Origin: Candidatus Hydrogenedentota bacterium
GTDB lineage: Bacteria > Hydrogenedentota > Hydrogenedentia > Hydrogenedentales > JAEUWI01
Assembly: GCA_019637335.1 (NCBI GenBank)
Contig: JAHBVV010000034.1
Span: forward strand, 1-64,000
Length of the DNA stretch: 64,000 nucleotides
Direction of reading: 5' to 3'
Made by a program: the position numbers and the translations under genes. Positions 7,177-18,008 of the stretch are shown piece after piece. Position 1 is the first letter of the stretch. Each line of letters starts with the position of its first letter. The notes under the pieces were generated by a model that was given only the letters and a program-made list of their open reading frames with translations, made no database searches and was not told where the DNA came from.

Positions 7177-7566
7177 ATGCGCGCATCAAGTCTGCACCTC
7201 CAGCGCAGCGCCGAAGCCCTCCTCGGCTACCTGCGGGGGATCACCTGCGACGGCCACCTCAGCGACCTCGAAATCGCCAACCTCCAGGGCTGGCTCGAAA
7301 CCCACGACGCCCTCCGCCAGCACTGGCCCTTCGACGAACTCAGCGCGCGATTGGAATCCATCCTGCGGGATTCCGTCATCGATGAAGACGAGCGCGCCGA
7401 ACTCCTCGAATGGTGCGCCGACCTATCGCTGGATACCAATCCGGCCTACGATCTCATCGATATGGCCACGCGCCAACTGCACGGCGTCCTCCATGGGATT
7501 CAATCCGACGGCAAGGTCACCGAAGACGAGGTGTACGGCCTCCGGGATTGGCTTTCTGCCAAATAA
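7177..7566 (+). CDS. Small two-repeat helical protein, possibly TerB-like
   Basis: The 129-residue acidic soluble protein contains two similar helical repeats: LLGYLRGITCDGHLSDLEI (about 14-32) and LHGVLHGIQSDGKVTEDEV (about 103-121). The D-G-x-(L/V)-(S/T)-(D/E)-x-E pattern resembles TerB-like helical bundles and the helical segment found beside some BRCT domains. I chose the ATG at 7177, where AGGGGA lies about 7 bp upstream (7164-7169) and the first repeat begins shortly after. Base composition is host-like, unlike the STAND gene 61 bp downstream, so it probably predates that gene's arrival. Function is unknown; the family assignment is tentative. Confidence 0.6.
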   Translation: MRASSLHLQRSAEALLGYLRGITCDGHLSDLEIANLQGWLETHDALRQHWPFDELSARLESILRDSVIDEDERAELLEWCADLSLDTNPAYDLIDMATRQLHGVLHGIQSDGKVTEDEVYGLRDWLSAK

Positions 7567-7627
7567 TTGCGATCACATCGTTTTCAATGCGAAATCTCTA
7601 TCCATCACAAAAAGTGTGAGGTAAAAA

Positions 7628-10600
7628 ATGCCACTGCGCGGCGGATCTAGCGACAAATTAGGAAATCGCTATGAAGGTTGGTGGACCGTATCATGCCTTC
7701 TTGGCATCCTGGCAAGCGAGGCGGAATCAATCCGCATAGAGGAGCCAGGTGAAGACTCAATAGAATTCGTTCTCGTAAAAAGAGGCAAGAAGGAGTATCA
7801 CCAGGCAAAGCGGAACACGCCATTGGGCTCATGGACAATTGCAGCGCTTGGATCGACTAAAGTCGGTGTGCTGAAGGCAATCAAGGAAAAGCTCTCAGGC
7901 AGCGACTCGAAATTCTTATTCGTGTCTGGAAGCGAATCTCGCGAGCTTAAGGAACTTACTGATCGTTCGAGAGACGCCGAATCGTACGAAGAATTCACGA
8001 CCAAATTCCTTCAAGCCAAAGCTCATTCTGAGAATTTCCAAAAGCTCCAGCGATTTTGGGATGACGTCGCTCCCGAAGTTGCATATGAACTGCTGCAACG
8101 GCTAACCCTGAGGACAATTGACGAGCGAGGTCTCGTCGAAAGCACAAGAAATCATAGTCGGGCACTGTTTCTTGAAAGACCCGAGACCGTTCTGGCTGAA
8201 CTTCGAAGTATTGTACTTGATTCCGTTCATCAAACATTGACCCGGGACGATCTGATCACCAGCTTGAGAGACTCTGGAATTCAGCTCCGCAGGATTCAAA
8301 ATCCGCAAGATGTTCCGAACGTTGTCCGTCAGGCAACAGACGCGTACTTGGAGAGTATCCGTCGTAAGTTGATCGGCGGAACACTGATCCCGCGAGAGGC
8401 GGTGGAATCCCTATGCCAGAAGGTGCTGGCCAGCACGGAGAGTATGGAGATCGCCATAGTTGGAAAGGCTGGTGGTGGGAAGACTGCGAGCCTTCTTCAT
8501 CTAGCGCAGGGGCTTGTGGATGGAGGAGTTTCGGTGCTGGCATTCCGATTGTACCCATTGGAGCCCGTTTACAATTCTAAACAGCTTGGCGAAAAAATTG
8601 GCTTGGAAGAATCCCCAGCGCTCATCGTCTCCAGCTTGTCGGCCACTGGACCGTCGGCGATCTTAATAGACCAACTTGACGCGCTTAGCATAGTTTCAGG
8701 TCGTGGAACGGAAGCGTTCTACGAAACGTTGGAACAAGTCTTAAGCGAAGTGCGTGGATTGAGAACGCCGCATCCGATACATGTCATTGTTGCTTGCAGA
8801 AGTTTCGACTGGAGTAATGACGCGCGATTCAGGAGCATGCTGCGAAATAACCACTTGAACTTTGAAGTGTCTGACTTCTCCATGGATGAGGTCGAGCATG
8901 TGCTCTCGGACCACAGTTTTGACGTCAGCGGTTTTCAAGAGAGGCAGACTAGACTCCTGTGTCTTCCACGCAATCTATACCTGTTCCTCGAGTCCCACAT
9001 TGGTTCGGAACGGGAATTTAAGTTTCTGACCGAGAAGGACCTTTTTGACCAATACTGGGACGAAAAGCGAGGAGCGATAAATTCGCGATTGACGTCACAT
9101 CGAGACAACTGGGATGTCGTGATCCAGAGTATTGTCGAAATCATGAGAGACTCCGAACAACTATTCTCACCGAAAGAAAAGCTTGATGCCCTTGACCAAG
9201 TCTACTTGGACGCAATGTGCTCGGAGAGCGTGTTGACTTTCGATGGCAAACGATATGGGTTTGGTCATGAGAGTTTTTATGACTACTGTTTCGCTCGCAA
9301 ATTTGTTGCCAATGGTCAGAGCCTCTGTGAAGTGCTGAAGGAGGGCAGCCAAGGGCTCTTTGTCCGGTCTATGGTGAGACAGGTCCTTATGTACATGCGT
9401 GATTACGATTCTCCGACCTACATTCAACAAGTTGATTCGCTACTGAGTGATAACCACATTCGGATTCACATAAAGGACTTGGTGCTGGGGCTTTTGGCTT
9501 CAGCGCCACAACCAAAACTTGAAGAGTGGAAGCTCTTCAATACTCGAATCGATAATCTCTTCAAATTGGCCTCGGAGAATTCGCAATATGGGACCCTGGA
9601 AGCGTTAGTTTGGCAGTATTTTTTCTTGTCACCATCGCTTTTCGGAATGGCGCATTCCGAAGGCGACTTGAAGCGGTGGTTAGCGTCAGTCGGCGACCAA
9701 TCCATTAATATTCTTATTCACTACTTCTACTACGAACAGCGGCATCACGCGGAAGTGATCGCGGAATTGCTGGAACCGTACGTCGGAGTAAGTCCCGTCT
9801 GGGATGATCGATTAAGAAGAGTCATGGAAGGCGCCTCGAGTGGAGACAGTAGACGGTCGTTCGACTTATTCTTGAAATTGCTTGAACTTGGGGTGCTTGA
9901 CTCAGCCCGCGATAGATGGATCGGCAACGGAACATTCTGGTCAATGTGCAGTTCATGGTCGGACAGCAGGCCAGACTGGTTAGCTGAATTGATCGCACGG
10001 TGGTTGGCAAGACGACTTCAGTTGTTTTTGGATTCCGGCAGGTCTACATGCCAGCCTGCTTGGAGGGGATTCCTGGAGAATGACAGTGATGTGAAACATA
10101 TACTCATGGAAGTGGCGCAGAAGGCTCCAGCGGAGTATGTGAAATATGTATTGCCAGTTGTGTTGCAGATCATTGAGGAAGCTGTGGTTAAAGGCAGAGA
10201 TGAGCTACCACGGGTCGACTACGTGGAGAGGATATATCATGTCAGCGAGTCCAGTATGACCCGAGGCATCCTGAGAGAATCGCTTTTTTCTGCACTTGAT
10301 TCATTGCGGGGGGAGCGGGGAACCATATTCCTGAATGCCGTACAAGACTTGCGGGGCAGGAACACATATTTTTCGAACCATCTCCTGCTGCGACTTTACA
10401 CCAGTAGCGCGAGCCAATTAGCGGAAGTTGCGGCGGAACTGCTCTGTAATGAGCCATGGCGTTTGTCCTGCGGATACGCAGACAGCGAGTATTGGGTAGC
10501 GGCGAGGCTGCTGGGGGAGATTCTTCCCCATCTTGCGGCGGATGATCGTGAAAGGCTTGAGCGAGTTGTACTGGATTTTGTGCCGAAATGGGAGCGCCAA

Positions 10601-12181
10601 AGAAAACACAATGGATACTTGCAGCATGGGCAGGCATGCTTTGAACTGCTGTCCGGTATACCTGAGAAGCTATTAAGCCCAACTGGGCGAAAGCGTTTGC
10701 AGGAGTTGGTCCGCAAGTTTGGATCACCAAGCGGTCCGCCCCAAAACACAAGCGCGAGCTTCGTAACGTCGCCCGTTCCCCACGATGCAAGTGGGAAGAT
10801 GAGTAACGACCAGTGGATTCGAGCGATCAAGAAGTACAACGATGAGAGTTCCGGTAGGTGGTTCCAGACCCCGGGTAAGGGCGGACCAGCTCAGTTGGCT
10901 GGCGAATTGGAGCTTTGCGTCAAGAGTGAGCCGGAGAGATTTGCAAAATTGGCCCTGGTGTTTCCAAGCGGGACAAATCCCGTGTTTTTTTCCCGTATTC
11001 TGCGTGGATTGAAAGTATGCGAAGGTTTCGACAAGGTAAAAACAGAGCTGTGCCGAAGGGTGATCTCCGAGTATAAAGTAGAATGTGGCACGGAACTTGT
11101 CGAAATCTTACCGAGTTTTCAAGGTCCAATTCCTGAAGATTTGTTGGATTTCCTGCGGTGGACGATTGCAAATCACCCGGATCCGGCGACCGAATTGTGG
11201 GACCAGGACAGCAATGGGGGTGGAAAGTACTACGGAGGCGACATATACGATTGTGGACTGAATACAACCCGAGGCGCGGCGGCAGGCGTCCTCCGCGAAC
11301 TAGTCCGAAAAGAGCCAAAGCTCATAGATACCTTGAGAGATACGTTGACGAGACTAATCGGCGATCCAAGTATTGCGGTGCGCTCATGCGCGGCGACCAC
11401 ACTTCAGGTTGTTTACTGGCACAACGAAGACCTGGCAGTAGAATTGTTCCAAGAACTGGTCAACACAGACGAGCGCCTACTCGGAACTCATTATGTTCAG
11501 GAATTCCTGCACTGGTCACTTCGACACCACATTGAGGATGTGCGCAATATTGTATTGCGGATGTTAGTCTCTGGCCACAGTGAGGTGAGACGAGGTGGTG
11601 GACGTCTCGCGGGACTAGCGGAACTATACCATGAGAGCGAGGCAAGTCTAGCGGCGTCAGCGATGGCGGGGGACACGGCATCCCGCTTAGGAATTGCCGA
11701 AATTGCCGCAAAAAACCTTGGTATTCAGGATTGCCGGTCTTTGTGCGAAGATAAACTTCTCGTGCTCTTCAATGACGAAAATGAGGACGTTCAAAAGTGT
11801 GTGGCTACTTGTTTTCGTTCCTTGGAAGGAAAACCCGTTGAAGAATTTGAGAGACTGATTGAAGGATTTTGTCGAAGTAAAGCGTTCGAGACAGATTCGA
11901 GCGAACTTATCGAGTTGCTTGTCCAATCTACCTATCGTGTGCCAGGTGTGCTGGCAAGCACTTGTGAGCGGTATCTGAAGTGGTTTGAAAAGCGTAGCGA
12001 AACTGGGGCCAGAGACCTTGCGTATGGAGTAAGCATGAAACTAGTGTCGCAATTGATCTTCCGGATATATCAGCAGCATAAAGGAGACGTATGGGGCACG
12101 AAAGCCCTAGATCTGATTGACCGCATGTGCCTTGTGGGGGTCTCAGAGGTTAGAGGCGGACTTTCCGAATTTGATCGGTGA
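7628..12181 (+). CDS. Avs-like STAND NTPase with N-terminal Cap4-type nuclease domain (putative anti-phage protein)
   Basis: The protein has 1517 residues. Residues about 1-230 resemble the Cap4/DUF4297 dsDNA nuclease fold: GNRYEGWW with E16, then IEEPGEDSIEF and EYHQAK (Q59, K61) as a PD-(D/E/Q)xK-like active site. Residues about 270-620 form a STAND-type NTPase with Walker A GKAGGGKT (279-286) and Walker B AILIDQLD (D348, D351). The segments VIVACRSFDW and FGHESFYDYCFARKF are typical of NACHT/STAND proteins. The remaining 850 or so residues are helical, HEAT/TPR-like, including IAVRSCAATTLQVVY, and would be the sensor. Avs proteins of this plan bind a phage protein, oligomerise and degrade DNA. 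GAGG lies 6 bp before the ATG. G+C is about one half against about two thirds around it, a sign of transfer. Confidence 0.82.
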   Translation: MPLRGGSSDKLGNRYEGWWTVSCLLGILASEAESIRIEEPGEDSIEFVLVKRGKKEYHQAKRNTPLGSWTIAALGSTKVGVLKAIKEKLSGSDSKFLFVSGSESRELKELTDRSRDAESYEEFTTKFLQAKAHSENFQKLQRFWDDVAPEVAYELLQRLTLRTIDERGLVESTRNHSRALFLERPETVLAELRSIVLDSVHQTLTRDDLITSLRDSGIQLRRIQNPQDVPNVVRQATDAYLESIRRKLIGGTLIPREAVESLCQKVLASTESMEIAIVGKAGGGKTASLLHLAQGLVDGGVSVLAFRLYPLEPVYNSKQLGEKIGLEESPALIVSSLSATGPSAILIDQLDALSIVSGRGTEAFYETLEQVLSEVRGLRTPHPIHVIVACRSFDWSNDARFRSMLRNNHLNFEVSDFSMDEVEHVLSDHSFDVSGFQERQTRLLCLPRNLYLFLESHIGSEREFKFLTEKDLFDQYWDEKRGAINSRLTSHRDNWDVVIQSIVEIMRDSEQLFSPKEKLDALDQVYLDAMCSESVLTFDGKRYGFGHESFYDYCFARKFVANGQSLCEVLKEGSQGLFVRSMVRQVLMYMRDYDSPTYIQQVDSLLSDNHIRIHIKDLVLGLLASAPQPKLEEWKLFNTRIDNLFKLASENSQYGTLEALVWQYFFLSPSLFGMAHSEGDLKRWLASVGDQSINILIHYFYYEQRHHAEVIAELLEPYVGVSPVWDDRLRRVMEGASSGDSRRSFDLFLKLLELGVLDSARDRWIGNGTFWSMCSSWSDSRPDWLAELIARWLARRLQLFLDSGRSTCQPAWRGFLENDSDVKHILMEVAQKAPAEYVKYVLPVVLQIIEEAVVKGRDELPRVDYVERIYHVSESSMTRGILRESLFSALDSLRGERGTIFLNAVQDLRGRNTYFSNHLLLRLYTSSASQLAEVAAELLCNEPWRLSCGYADSEYWVAARLLGEILPHLAADDRERLERVVLDFVPKWERQRKHNGYLQHGQACFELLSGIPEKLLSPTGRKRLQELVRKFGSPSGPPQNTSASFVTSPVPHDASGKMSNDQWIRAIKKYNDESSGRWFQTPGKGGPAQLAGELELCVKSEPERFAKLALVFPSGTNPVFFSRILRGLKVCEGFDKVKTELCRRVISEYKVECGTELVEILPSFQGPIPEDLLDFLRWTIANHPDPATELWDQDSNGGGKYYGGDIYDCGLNTTRGAAAGVLRELVRKEPKLIDTLRDTLTRLIGDPSIAVRSCAATTLQVVYWHNEDLAVELFQELVNTDERLLGTHYVQEFLHWSLRHHIEDVRNIVLRMLVSGHSEVRRGGGRLAGLAELYHESEASLAASAMAGDTASRLGIAEIAAKNLGIQDCRSLCEDKLLVLFNDENEDVQKCVATCFRSLEGKPVEEFERLIEGFCRSKAFETDSSELIELLVQSTYRVPGVLASTCERYLKWFEKRSETGARDLAYGVSMKLVSQLIFRIYQQHKGDVWGTKALDLIDRMCLVGVSEVRGGLSEFDR

Positions 12182-12379
12182 CTAGGTCTCGGTCTGTTGA
12201 CGGGACCGCCAGTTTTTGTTCTTTAATTGTTGGGCATTTTCCCTTGCCTACAAAGGTAAACCTCCACCCCGCCGTTTGGTCTCTCCCGGCTTCCCAAGGC
12301 TCCCGAAAAGGGGGTACAATAATCGGGCCAGGCCGCTGTAATGTCACCTTGCTCGAATGAGCCCACGGGAGATTCGGAA
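12182..12379. other. Gap between defence gene and mntA
   Basis: I see no gene, repeat or clear terminator here. It separates the low-G+C STAND gene from the host-like nucleotidyltransferase gene. Confidence 0.5.
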
Positions 12380-12685
12380 ATGAGCCAGCCCAGAATCGCC
12401 ATACCGCAGGAGGAGATCGAAGCCTTTTGCCGGAAATGGCGCGTGCGCGAGTTTTCTCTCTTCGGCTCCGTCCTTCGCGACGACTTTCGCGACGACAGCG
12501 ATGTGGATGTGCTGGTGGAATTCGACGCGGCCGCCCCGTGGAGCCTGTGGGACTGGCCGTACATGATCGACGAGTTGAAGGCTGTTTTTGGCCGCGAGGT
12601 GGACTTGGTGGAGAAGGACGCCCTTCGGAACGAGCAGCGCCGCAGGGCCATACTTTCGGAGCATCGGGTGCTTTATGCCGCTTAG
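12380..12685 (+). CDS. mntA: MntA-like minimal nucleotidyltransferase (antitoxin)
   Basis: The 101-residue protein is a minimal nucleotidyltransferase with the motif GSVLRDDFRDDSDVDVLVEF, in which the GSxxR and DxD residues are intact, and a later DLVE acidic segment. In MntA-HepT modules this enzyme adds AMP residues to the HepT toxin and neutralises it. The start at 12380 gives the usual short N-terminus. The stop overlaps the start of the hepT frame by 11 bp, the normal arrangement of the operon. Because the toxin frame is interrupted, this antitoxin may now be solitary. G+C is closer to the host than that of the upstream STAND gene. Confidence 0.88.
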   Translation: MSQPRIAIPQEEIEAFCRKWRVREFSLFGSVLRDDFRDDSDVDVLVEFDAAAPWSLWDWPYMIDELKAVFGREVDLVEKDALRNEQRRRAILSEHRVLYAA

Positions 12686-13025
12686 CGAACGGGATACGGC
12701 GCTCCTGGAGGACATGCTCGTCCACGCCTGATTGATAAGCGCGTTCGTCGAAGGGATTTCCGTTGATCAGTATCTGGCGGACAGGAAAACCCAGCTTGCC
12801 GTTGAACGGCTCATAGAGATCATCGGGGAGGCGGCCCGGGGAATGTCCAAGGCTTTTCGGGACAGCGAACCTGACATACCCTGGCGGGGCATAATCGGAC
12901 AGCGAAACGTGCTGGCGCACGAGTACGGCGAAGTAAAGCAGGAACGCATATGGAATGTCGCGCCGCGAGAAATTCCCATCCTGATAGGGCATCTTGAACG
13001 GCTGACGTCCGCGGATCCCGAATGA
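12675..13025 (+). pseudogene. hepT: HepT-like HEPN toxin interrupted by an in-frame TGA
   Basis: From ATG 12675 the frame reads MPLSERDTALLEDMLVHA, meets TGA at 12729-12731, then continues in the same frame with LISAFVEGISVDQYLADRK and the rest of a HepT (DUF86) protein. The RNase-type HEPN motif RNVLAHEY (RX4HXY) and the IGEAARG and IPWRGIIGQRN segments are intact. The stop falls where many HepT proteins have an arginine, so a CGA-to-TGA change is the simplest explanation. A TTG at 12732 could start a 97-residue product, but it lacks helix 1 and a well-placed ribosome site. Either the toxin is dead, or translation restarts, or the stop is read through. The frame and motifs are seen; the consequence is inferred. 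Confidence 0.8.
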
Positions 13026-13805: not shown

Positions 13806-14021
13806 CTATTCTTCCAGCGGCAGGGCGACGTCCTCGAAGTTGTCCATCATGCGATCGCCGCGCATGCGCTCGAGGGCCATGTGGGCGTCGCCGGCGCTTA
13901 GGGTCACCTGGTCTTTGCTGCAATAGCGCCGCCAGGTGATGTTGCCGTTTTCCTTTTCCTTGTTGCCGATGATCCAGATACTCGGCACCTTGTGGGTGAT
14001 GGCGTTGCGGATTGTTTTGAG
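13806..14021 (-). pseudogene. Divergent duplicate of the thrS 3' end
   Basis: On the minus strand this encodes about 70 codons matching the ThrRS anticodon-binding domain: IRNAITHKVPSIWIIGNKEK, ENGNITWRRYCSKDQ, and a family-like ending MDNFEDVALPLEE with a stop. It has no start codon of its own in frame with the domain. A 53-bp segment at 13927-13979 is identical to 14384-14436 inside thrS, while flanking bases have diverged. It may preserve the original 3' end of thrS. Confidence 0.75.
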
Positions 14022-14052
14022 TTCTGAGACCGCCAGCACTGCAGTTGTAGAA

Positions 14053-16089
14053 CTACCTAAGATACATTTTCCCTTTACAAACGGAACATTCTAGTTCTTT
14101 GCAGTTCATGTATTCGGCCAAGTCCAAGGCGTAAGTGATGTTATCGGCCTGAGAATCTGGAGCAACATTGGCGTTGTATTCATTAAGGTCGTGCGCACCA
14201 TCCACATCATCGGGAGAGCTTTGAGATCTTGGAAAATACAACGTTCTCAAGCCACAATCGGGATTTGAACATACGTAAAGTTTGGTCATCCTGAAATTGT
14301 CCATTGTCCGTTCTCCTCGAAGTTGTTCCATCAGCTTTTTTGCATTTTCGATGCTCATAGTCTCTTGGTCTTTGCTGCTATACCGCCGCCAGGTGATGTT
14401 GCCGTTTTCCTTTTCCTTGTTGCCGATGATCCAGATGTTCGGGATCTTGTGGGTGATGGCGTTGCGGATTTTTTTGTTGAAGCTCTCGTTGCTCTCGTCG
14501 ATCTCGGCGCGGAAGAGGCTTTCGCGGAGTTCGCCGGCGATCTGGTGGGCGTAGCCGGCGACGTCGTCGTTGACGGGGATGAGCTTGACCTGCACGGGGG
14601 CCATCCAGGTGGGGAAGGCGCCGCCGTAGAGCTCGATGAGGAAGCTGATCATGCGCTCGTGGGTGCTGAGGGGCGCGCGGTGGATGATGAACGGGGTCTT
14701 GTGCGATCCGTCGGAGTCCACGTATTCGAGGTTGAAGCGTTCCGCCACCACGAAGTCGAGCTGGCAGGTGGAGACGGTCTCTTCGCGGCCGAGGAGGTTC
14801 TTTACCTGGATGTCGATCTTGGGGCCGTAGAAGGCGGCTTCGCCTTTCTCCTCCTCAAACTCCACGCCGAGATTGTGCAGCACCTCGCGCACGACGGCCT
14901 CGCTCTGGAGCCATTCCTCGGTCTTGCCGGCGAACTTGTCCGACGCGGGGTCGTGGAGGCTCAGGCGCACGCGGAAGTTGCCCATGCGCAGGTGGCCGTA
15001 GTAGTAGCTGTACATGTCCATGACGGCGCGGAATTCCTGCTCCACCTGCTCGGGGGTGCAGTAGATGTGGGCGTCGTTCATGCACATGGCGCGGACGCGG
15101 AGCAGGCCCGCGAGGGAGCCGTGCTTCTCGTAGCGGTAGGTGTTGCCGTATTCCGCCAGGCGGAGCGGGAGGTCGCGGTAGGAGTGGGGCCGCGCCGCGT
15201 AGATCTTGTGGTGGTGCGGGCAGTTCATCGGGCGGAGGTAATATTCGTCGTGATCGTCCACCACCATGGCGGGGTACATGGAGTCGGCGTAGTAGGGGAG
15301 GTGCCCCGAGCGGTGGTAGAGGTCGCCGCGGGTGATGGCGGGGGTGCTCACGCGCTGGTAGCCCGCGCGGAACTCGATCTCGCGGGCCCACTGCTCCAGT
15401 TCGTCCCGCACCACGGCGCCATTCGGCATCCACATCGGCAGGCCCACGCCCACCTCCTCGTCCATGAAGAAGAGGTCGAGTTCCTGGCCCAGTTTGCGGT
15501 GGTCCCGCTCCATGGCGAGCTTGCGCCGCTCGATGTAGCCGTTCAATTCGGCCTTTGACTCAAACGCCAGCCCGTAGATGCGGGTGAGCATCGGCTTCTT
15601 CTCGTCGCCGCGCCAGTAGCTGCCGGAGATGCGGTCCAGCTTGAAGCAGGCCTTCGGCACCTCGCCGGTGTGCGCCAGGTGCGGCCCCTCGCACATGTCG
15701 ATAAAGGGGCCATTCACATAAAAGCCGAGGCCCTCGGGGCCCGCTTTCCCGGTTTCCACCAGTTCCCGCGCGTATTCGATCTTGTAGGTCTGGTCCGTCG
15801 CCGCGAGCAGTTCCCGCGCCTCTTCCAGCGACCTGTAGGACTGCTCGAAGGGCTGTTTTTCCTTGATGATGCGGCGCATGGCGTTCTCGATCTGTTCCAG
15901 GTCGCGCTCGCCGATGGGTTCGCCGCCGAAGTCGAAGTCGTAGTAGAACCCGAACTCCACGGGCGGGCCGAAGGCCATCTTGGCCTGGGGGCGGATTTCG
16001 AGCACGGCCTGGGCCATGATGTGGGCCAGCGAATGGCGCACTTTATAGATAAAAGACTGCTTCGGGTCGTCGTGGGGCTGGCTGCACAT
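14053..16089 (-). CDS. thrS: Threonyl-tRNA synthetase without TGS domain and with an unusual C-terminal tail
   Basis: This class II synthetase charges tRNA-Thr. It has the SAD editing-like domain (RHSLAHIMAQAV with conserved His), the catalytic core (MNCPHHHKIY zinc ligand motif, TYRYEKHGSLAGLLRVR, PLSTHERMISFLIELY) and the anticodon domain (ITHKIPNIWIIGNKEKENG). The ATG at 16089 gives MCSQPHDDPKQSF and no TGS domain; 16131 is an upstream alternative. After MDNF, where ThrRS normally ends, 78 residues are added. They start at an internal ATG at 14289 (MTKLYVCSNPDCGLRTLYFP) and carry five Cys in a CX4C...CX4CX2C zinc-ribbon-like pattern. The tail DNA is clearly lower in G+C than the core, and a copy of the normal 3' end lies just downstream. 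The tail therefore looks acquired. Core function should be intact. Confidence 0.93.
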   Translation of the reverse strand: MCSQPHDDPKQSFIYKVRHSLAHIMAQAVLEIRPQAKMAFGPPVEFGFYYDFDFGGEPIGERDLEQIENAMRRIIKEKQPFEQSYRSLEEARELLAATDQTYKIEYARELVETGKAGPEGLGFYVNGPFIDMCEGPHLAHTGEVPKACFKLDRISGSYWRGDEKKPMLTRIYGLAFESKAELNGYIERRKLAMERDHRKLGQELDLFFMDEEVGVGLPMWMPNGAVVRDELEQWAREIEFRAGYQRVSTPAITRGDLYHRSGHLPYYADSMYPAMVVDDHDEYYLRPMNCPHHHKIYAARPHSYRDLPLRLAEYGNTYRYEKHGSLAGLLRVRAMCMNDAHIYCTPEQVEQEFRAVMDMYSYYYGHLRMGNFRVRLSLHDPASDKFAGKTEEWLQSEAVVREVLHNLGVEFEEEKGEAAFYGPKIDIQVKNLLGREETVSTCQLDFVVAERFNLEYVDSDGSHKTPFIIHRAPLSTHERMISFLIELYGGAFPTWMAPVQVKLIPVNDDVAGYAHQIAGELRESLFRAEIDESNESFNKKIRNAITHKIPNIWIIGNKEKENGNITWRRYSSKDQETMSIENAKKLMEQLRGERTMDNFRMTKLYVCSNPDCGLRTLYFPRSQSSPDDVDGAHDLNEYNANVAPDSQADNITYALDLAEYMNCKELECSVCKGKMYLR

Positions 16090-16264
16090 GGTTCGGGGGG
16101 TCCTGTAAAAGTCGAAAAGGCGCCCGGCCACGTGAACACGGCCGGGCCTTAAAAGGGCGTCTGGAAAGCGCGTAGAATAGCAAGATCGGCGCTGTTAAGT
16201 CCATTGGCCATGCGCATTTTGCCACCTGACATGCGGAACGCTCTGCGTCAGTGGCGGCGGCAGA

Positions 16265-16873: not shown

Positions 16874-17398
16874 TCATTCAAAATAATCGATGAAAACATC
16901 TTTTTTGAAGTCTTTAAAGCACACACGATACCAATCATGGGAGTCGTCAAATATTCTATAAATATCTTCATATAGTGACGCTATGTTCTCCAAATTTTTC
17001 TCCACCTCTCCCAGAGTTGTCTTTTTGGTCAATTTGTGGACAATCTGATTTCGACGTTGATTGAAATCACTACATTTGCTGATAAACGATTCTTTTTCAG
17101 GAAACTCTATCCCATCACCCAATTCCGCTAAGGCAGAGCCAAACATCGGTCTATTTCTTTTTGGAAACTTTATCTTTGCCGGGTGAATGGATAACTCGAT
17201 AAAGAACCTCGAATCTGCAATTAGCAAACGCACCATTTCTTCACAGAGTTGATGATAAATAAGCAAGGCAGCAAGATAGCCCTCGATTGTGTTCTGCTTG
17301 ATCGCCCTGCTTGCCAGGTCGTCAAGTTCCTGCATGAAGTTCGGATTCTCGAAGGAAGGCCAATGCTCTGAATTGTTGATTTGTTGTATCAAATCCAT
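16874..17398 (-). CDS. Low-G+C hypothetical protein with possible HEPN motif
   Basis: The 174-residue protein has markedly lower G+C (near 42% by eye) than its neighbours, a sign of recent transfer. It is predicted mostly helical. The segment FNQRRNQIVHKLTKKT contains RNQIVH, an RX4H pattern like that of HEPN ribonucleases, placed in the second half as in HEPN folds. AAGGGG lies 8 bp before the ATG. No membrane segments or signal peptide are visible. Proteins of this size with HEPN motifs occur as toxins and defence components, but no partner antitoxin is adjacent (the Phd gene is 386 bp away). Family assignment is tentative. Confidence 0.6.
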   Translation of the reverse strand: MDLIQQINNSEHWPSFENPNFMQELDDLASRAIKQNTIEGYLAALLIYHQLCEEMVRLLIADSRFFIELSIHPAKIKFPKRNRPMFGSALAELGDGIEFPEKESFISKCSDFNQRRNQIVHKLTKKTTLGEVEKNLENIASLYEDIYRIFDDSHDWYRVCFKDFKKDVFIDYFE

Positions 17399-17783: not shown

Positions 17784-18008
17784 TCAGAAGGAACTAATGA
17801 CTTCCTGGGGCAGTTCGTCAAAGTCGTCAGCTATCCAGATTTTGCCCGCCCAGCGACCTGGCTCACGAGGGGCTTTGATTTCCGTATAGGCGACCAACTT
17901 TGCCACAGGCTCGCCGGCGTTTGCGATGACAATTTCCTCACCTTCCTTGACTTCCCGAAGAAGGCGCGACAGCTGTGTCTTGGCTTCGTGAATGTTGACG
18001 GTCTTCAT
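17784..18008 (-). CDS. Phd/YefM-type antitoxin
   Basis: This 74-residue protein begins MKTVNIHEAKTQLSRLLREV, the typical start of Phd antitoxins, and continues EGEEIVIANAGEPVAKLV. The N-terminal part (1-50) would form the DNA-binding dimer and the C-terminal tail would wrap a PIN or Doc toxin. AAGGAA precedes the ATG by about 8 bp. A perfect palindrome 17 bp upstream is the probable autoregulatory operator. The cognate toxin frame just downstream has lost its start and active-site Asp, so this looks like an orphan antitoxin that may still repress its own promoter or protect against a related toxin encoded elsewhere. Confidence 0.88.
   Translation of the reverse strand: MKTVNIHEAKTQLSRLLREVKEGEEIVIANAGEPVAKLVAYTEIKAPREPGRWAGKIWIADDFDELPQEVISSF

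Follow-up and report, generated by a model that had tools for sequence, protein, structure and literature searches.

A candidate Avs-like nuclease–STAND protein with a predicted HEAT solenoid, probably acquired horizontally by a Hydrogenedentota bacterium

Sensors of the Avs type join an N-terminal effector—mostly a nuclease—to a central STAND ATPase, and in Avs2–Avs4 a helical-repeat region follows. For types 1–4, the phage terminase or the portal acts as the trigger, upon which the proteins oligomerize. The known Avs sensors respond to a small set of conserved phage proteins, and those studied best do so with TPR-like arms; Avs1–4 recognize phage proteins directly (PMC12931631). bNACHT25 is a PD-(D/E)xK bacterial NLR-related protein that needs host DnaJ for phage sensing and, like bNACHT32 of the same clade 6, combines a NACHT module with a PD-(D/E)xK DNase (PMC12169576). 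AbpA is an anti-phage nuclease with a Cap4-like domain (PMC12278908).

Here, we describe a gene with a related plan in a window of 64,000 nucleotides—the whole stretch of DNA that was analyzed—from a Candidatus Hydrogenedentota bacterium. Its open reading frame starts with ATG and is intact over 1517 codons. Judging from full-length, co-linear homologues with up to 42% identity in many phyla, it is a genuine gene and not a chance frame. Promoter and terminator scans gave counts close to the shuffled expectation. The following features were assigned:

7617..7622, forward strand: Shine–Dalgarno-like TGAGGT, 5 bases 5' of the ATG, read from the sequence
7628..12181, forward strand: whole gene (nuclease–STAND ATPase–HEAT solenoid, 1517 aa), from the open frame and full-length homologues
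7628..8122, forward strand: putative Cap4/AbpA-type PD-(D/E)xK nuclease domain, residues 1–165 (E16, E38, E46, Q59, K61), from conservation, profile matches and the predicted core
8123..8377, forward strand: helical linker, residues 166–250, from the structure model
8378..8827, forward strand: STAND ATPase core, residues 251–400, from nSTAND_NTPase5 (3e-5, below the Pfam cut-off) and fold matches to Avs4 and NLRs
8462..8485, forward strand: Walker A GKAGGGKT, residues 279–286
8669..8680, forward strand: Walker B region DQLD, residues 348–351
8828..9562, forward strand: lid and winged-helix region, residues 401–645, with H547 within GFGHESFYDYCFA, from the model and the invariant H547 and D552
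9563..12178, forward strand: HEAT solenoid and proposed sensor, residues 646–1517, from the model, fold matches and Pfam HEAT

We assign a probability of about 0.72 to the reading that the gene came in by horizontal transfer and by itself encodes an abortive-infection sensor of the Avs-like (bacterial NLR) type. For the resting state, we infer an inactive protein whose STAND pocket holds ADP. A protein from an invading phage—or from another mobile element—would bind the C-terminal HEAT solenoid, and this binding would lead to nucleotide exchange and oligomerization. Hereby, the Cap4-like nuclease domains would be brought together and cut double-stranded DNA, upon which phage production would stop and the cell would usually die. 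The sensor reading is preferred because of the motif conservation, the match to AbpA, the Avs4/NLR fold, the HEAT solenoid, and a match to the phage-defense candidate PDC-M54A, and likewise because of effector swapping among relatives, integrases and restriction and abortive-infection genes beside these relatives, foreign composition, and patchy distribution. Against it speak the following: in the literature consulted, no protein from precisely this family is reported to protect against phage, the PDB search gave no sequence match to the trigger-binding regions of Avs3 or Avs4, and the nuclease match is remote.

The original prediction had described a PD-(D/E/Q)xK nuclease-like N terminus, and its key residues hold up among 51 homologues: E16 is E in 47, Q59 is kept in 48, and K61 in 50. 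Two further near-invariant acidic residues absent from that prediction are E38 (E in 49/51) and E46 (E or D in 49/51), while G6 and G12 are invariant throughout. The family profile of residues 1–165 matches AbpA (8zue) at 7.1e-5 over residues 4–76, with the GG..K.G motif, E38, and QxK aligned. Three of 48 family members match LmuA (best 2.5e-5) and two match PF14130 (Cap4_nuclease) weakly (best 0.0017); a Pfam search of the window protein itself returned no nuclease-domain match. The predicted core follows the order helix-strand-strand-strand-helix-strand and bears the putative catalytic acidic residues and the (D/E/Q)xK motif. Since motif conservation, the AbpA profile match, the LmuA and Cap4 matches in relatives, and the predicted core coincide, we accept the N terminus as a remote Cap4/AbpA-type PD-(D/E)xK nuclease that would cleave DNA. 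AbpA, Cap4, and LmuA have the GG..K.G motif, E38, and QxK in common with it at the level of a remote match, but their nucleases are joined to other sensors (a helicase partner, a CBASS signal, and Lamassu, respectively). A Cap4 family scan of 68 genomes of the phylum gave no signal, with the controls equally silent, and is therefore uninformative.

In the center of the protein, both motifs of the predicted STAND ATPase (Walker A at 279–286 and D348/D351) were found at the residues originally named. G282, G284, K285, Q349, D351, R391, D394, and H547 are invariant in the 51 proteins, and D348—which sits together with D351 within ILIDQLDAL—is kept in 50 of them. Around H547, the FGHESFYDYCFA motif resembles the histidine-bearing motif in the winged helix of NACHT proteins. 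In the PDB fold search, the structure model of residues 1–645 (mean pLDDT 90.2) is best matched by Avs4 in complex with a phage portal (E 1.9e-11); NLRP3, NLRP9, and NLRC4 come next, and EfAvs5 ranks lower. The Avs4 match has a low TM-score (0.29 by query; NLRP9: 0.46), which points to a local fold agreement with domains placed differently. NACHT profiles match 27 of 48 members. Motifs and model confirm the center as a STAND ATPase of the NACHT-like type, with a histidine in its winged helix. bNACHT25/32 have NCH1 helical domains; the window protein bears no NACHT Pfam match above the cut-off.

The C-terminal helical-repeat region comprises about 870 residues. In the model of residues 625–1517, it is nearly all helical (mean pLDDT 88.9), and most of the fold matches listed are solenoids of the HEAT type, among them CAND1, importins, SF3B1, and the PP2A scaffold; the top 50 contain no Avs protein. 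As solenoids easily match one another, these matches support the repeat type and not an ancestry. Pfam HEAT hits lie at residues 1214–1282, and a PDB profile search also returns HEAT/ARM-type repeats. Sequence profiles and predicted fold thus agree with the expectation of a helical-repeat C terminus unlike the TPR arrays of Avs2–4, and we are confident in assigning a HEAT-type solenoid rather than a TPR array. Among close relatives, residues 801–900 form the least conserved stretch of the protein and the winged-helix region the most conserved one; W1063, P1102, N1212, and G1216 in the C-terminal half are invariant in the 51 proteins. It is a reasonable guess that the variable stretch would meet a changing ligand, and that the conserved core would serve folding, autoinhibition, or a constant partner.

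The sole solved full-length relative found is the 1523-aa 'AAA family ATPase' of PDB entries 9n00, 9n01, and 9yix. It falls into the same length class, is co-linear, and keeps QxK; in the PDB profile search, 9n00 matches the nuclease–STAND part at 2.7e-64 and the C-terminal half at 3.2e-22. Nevertheless, the relationship is remote, with no alignment at about residues 645–940 and Q in place of E16. 9n00 is absent from the fold-search matches, for which the fold library ends on 8 April 2026. The best named profile is PDC-M54A of PADLOC (8.6e-23), which also matches 41 of 48 relatives and is of similar length (1621–1657 positions), but the match is partial, lying mainly at residues 206–608, and this phage-defense candidate carries no function description.

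The Avs-type plan of nuclease, STAND ATPase, and helical repeats was upheld with independent tools. The window protein has this plan in common with Avs2–Avs4—with Avs4 as the best fold match for residues 1–645—and differs from them in its sensor, a HEAT solenoid instead of a TPR-like one. On the level of sequence, the Avs2 profile reaches E 0.005 over residues 234–420 only, and no Avs profile matches the whole protein. At 0.001, 9 of 48 relatives match the Avs2 profile in their N-terminal part, and weak Avs2/Avs4 profile hits occur in some relatives. Among the hits listed in the PDB search, there is no sequence match to solved Avs3 or Avs4, including their phage trigger-binding regions. EruA (NCBIfam NF058535) was rejected, its match amounting to 15.7 bits over residues 366–476 only against a family cut-off of 1000 bits; the literature consulted contained no publications on 9n00, PDC-M54, or EruA. 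The two outcomes named in advance as speaking against the prediction did not appear: the N terminus stays inside PD-(D/E)xK folds, and no non-defense family matches the whole protein, as no Pfam or NCBIfam family covers its full length.

A genome scan with the single window sequence as query gave no matches; a five-sequence alignment including plasmid homologues then brought up 100 relatives in genome contigs, and 80 of them were retained. About 20 of these match over the whole protein with 31–42% identity. Full-length relatives occur in Omnitrophota, Geobacteraceae, Binatota, Acidobacteriota, Rhodothermota, Spirochaetota, Latescibacterota, Verrucomicrobiota, Chlorobiota, and Gammaproteobacteria. 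The family is widespread across bacterial phyla and barely studied. A viral scan with two conserved peptide patterns found no homologues in phages or viral contigs.

The effector varies within the family, while ATPase and solenoid are kept. In relative L078, the N terminus is swapped for an Mrr-type nuclease (4.2e-7), with weaker Mrr signs in L082 and L086, and in L044 it is a CHAT domain (4.2e-23). L008, L037, and L080 are without a recognized effector at the N terminus, and among the plasmid-borne relatives some carry annotations as caspase-family or SEFIR-domain proteins. Avs-like immunity typically shows this pattern, in which effectors are exchanged while the sensor chassis stays constant. 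Genes adjoining the relatives include HsdM, AbiEii, AbiLi, RhuM, HEC-01A matches, restriction-like pairs, and integrases, which is a statement of occurrence and not of enrichment. Among roughly 80 surveyed loci, no neighbor family recurs at more than five, and the one that does reach this number looks integrase-like; most likely, the protein hence acts without a partner.

Which element would act as the trigger is left unspecified by the architecture. The same NLR-like nuclease switch might hence be aimed at plasmids or conjugating elements, or might be triggered indirectly as a guard by the disturbance of a host process. Several relatives are plasmid-borne, and the dependence of bNACHT25 on host DnaJ offers a precedent for indirect sensing (PMC12169576). 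However, the characterized proteins of the same plan, Avs1–4, recognize phage proteins directly (PMC12931631), and we regard a plasmid-directed or guarding switch as a considerably less probable explanation than the phage sensor.

A further tentative proposal, held at somewhat less than even odds, is that the family makes up a class of bacterial NLRs of its own that crosses phyla. Here, the TPR sensor would be replaced by a HEAT solenoid, the trigger would be a phage (or mobile-element) protein outside the known Avs set, and the effector would be freely exchanged. If true, bacterial pattern recognition would reach further phage parts through a widespread sister design that carries a HEAT arm. 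Numerous full-length sequences, confident models, and a solved, if distant, relative are at hand, so that the trigger is open to a direct search.

The base composition was originally claimed to be far from that of the neighbors, and this is borne out on the left, where glpK, glpO, and a phosphoesterase gene show 67–69% GC and 86–88% GC3 compared with 50.4% GC and 53.5% GC3 for the gene; the short MNT and HEPN genes on the right are intermediate (57–60% GC). In the sister genome G001 of the same genus, the MNT–HEPN pair, thrS, and a Phd antitoxin gene follow in the same order with the phosphoesterase on the other side, and metabolic-type genes (rhamnosidase, BNR protein, hydrolase) between MNT and phosphoesterase replace the gene, of which the matching locus bears no trace. 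The N-terminal profile found no match in 67 other genomes of the phylum. Because of the roughly 50% GC amid 67–69% GC neighbors and the absence both from the sister locus and from these 67 genomes, the gene was probably acquired horizontally, in line with the original prediction. No integrase lies beside it within the window, and only short, chance-like repeats flank it where terminal repeats or a target duplication were sought. In a 49-row tree, many phyla are mixed within the clade closest to the window protein, and Pseudomonadota alone require at least four changes on starred branches. More than one change on a tree is no proof of transfer by itself; together with composition, sister locus, and absence from the phylum, it fits horizontal spread.

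This distribution also bears on the reading as a STAND protein for regulation or development, in which the nuclease would serve host DNA processing or a cell-death control unrelated to mobile elements. STAND ATPases do also serve as regulators, and the host is a bacterium with a large genome. Yet, absence from 67 genomes of the phylum and scatter over unrelated phyla do not fit a housekeeping role, nor do the effector swapping in relatives and the match to a defense-candidate profile, which makes such a role improbable. That the gene is a decaying or silent import without a present role is more improbable still, since its foreign composition and lone position among metabolic genes are set against 1517 intact codons, a full set of motif residues, and a good ribosome-binding site.

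Several smaller observations concern the surroundings of the gene. From about 7550 on, GC falls, close to the 3' end of a small high-GC open reading frame (7178–7566, forward strand; 128 residues, without Pfam match) that stops 61 bases 5' of the gene; its sister-genome relative lies on a different contig in a frame with one TGA. On the 3' side, 12341–13025 (forward strand) encodes the MNT and HepT-like HEPN toxin–antitoxin pair, which is older than the import, as it is found at the same place in the sister genome. Further downstream, the 3' end of thrS (14053–16131, reverse strand) is duplicated: 13806–14039 (reverse strand) repeats it with 92% over 117 bases, and thrS itself carries a C-terminal extension of roughly 76 residues outside the matches to sister genomes. 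Duplication and extension together look like the footprint of a small insertion. Next to thrS, a foreign-looking gene of low GC (39%; 16874–17398, reverse strand) gives a weak RiboL-PSP-HEPN match. The Phd/YefM antitoxin gene at 17784–18008 (reverse strand), without an obvious intact toxin partner, is conserved in the sister genome.
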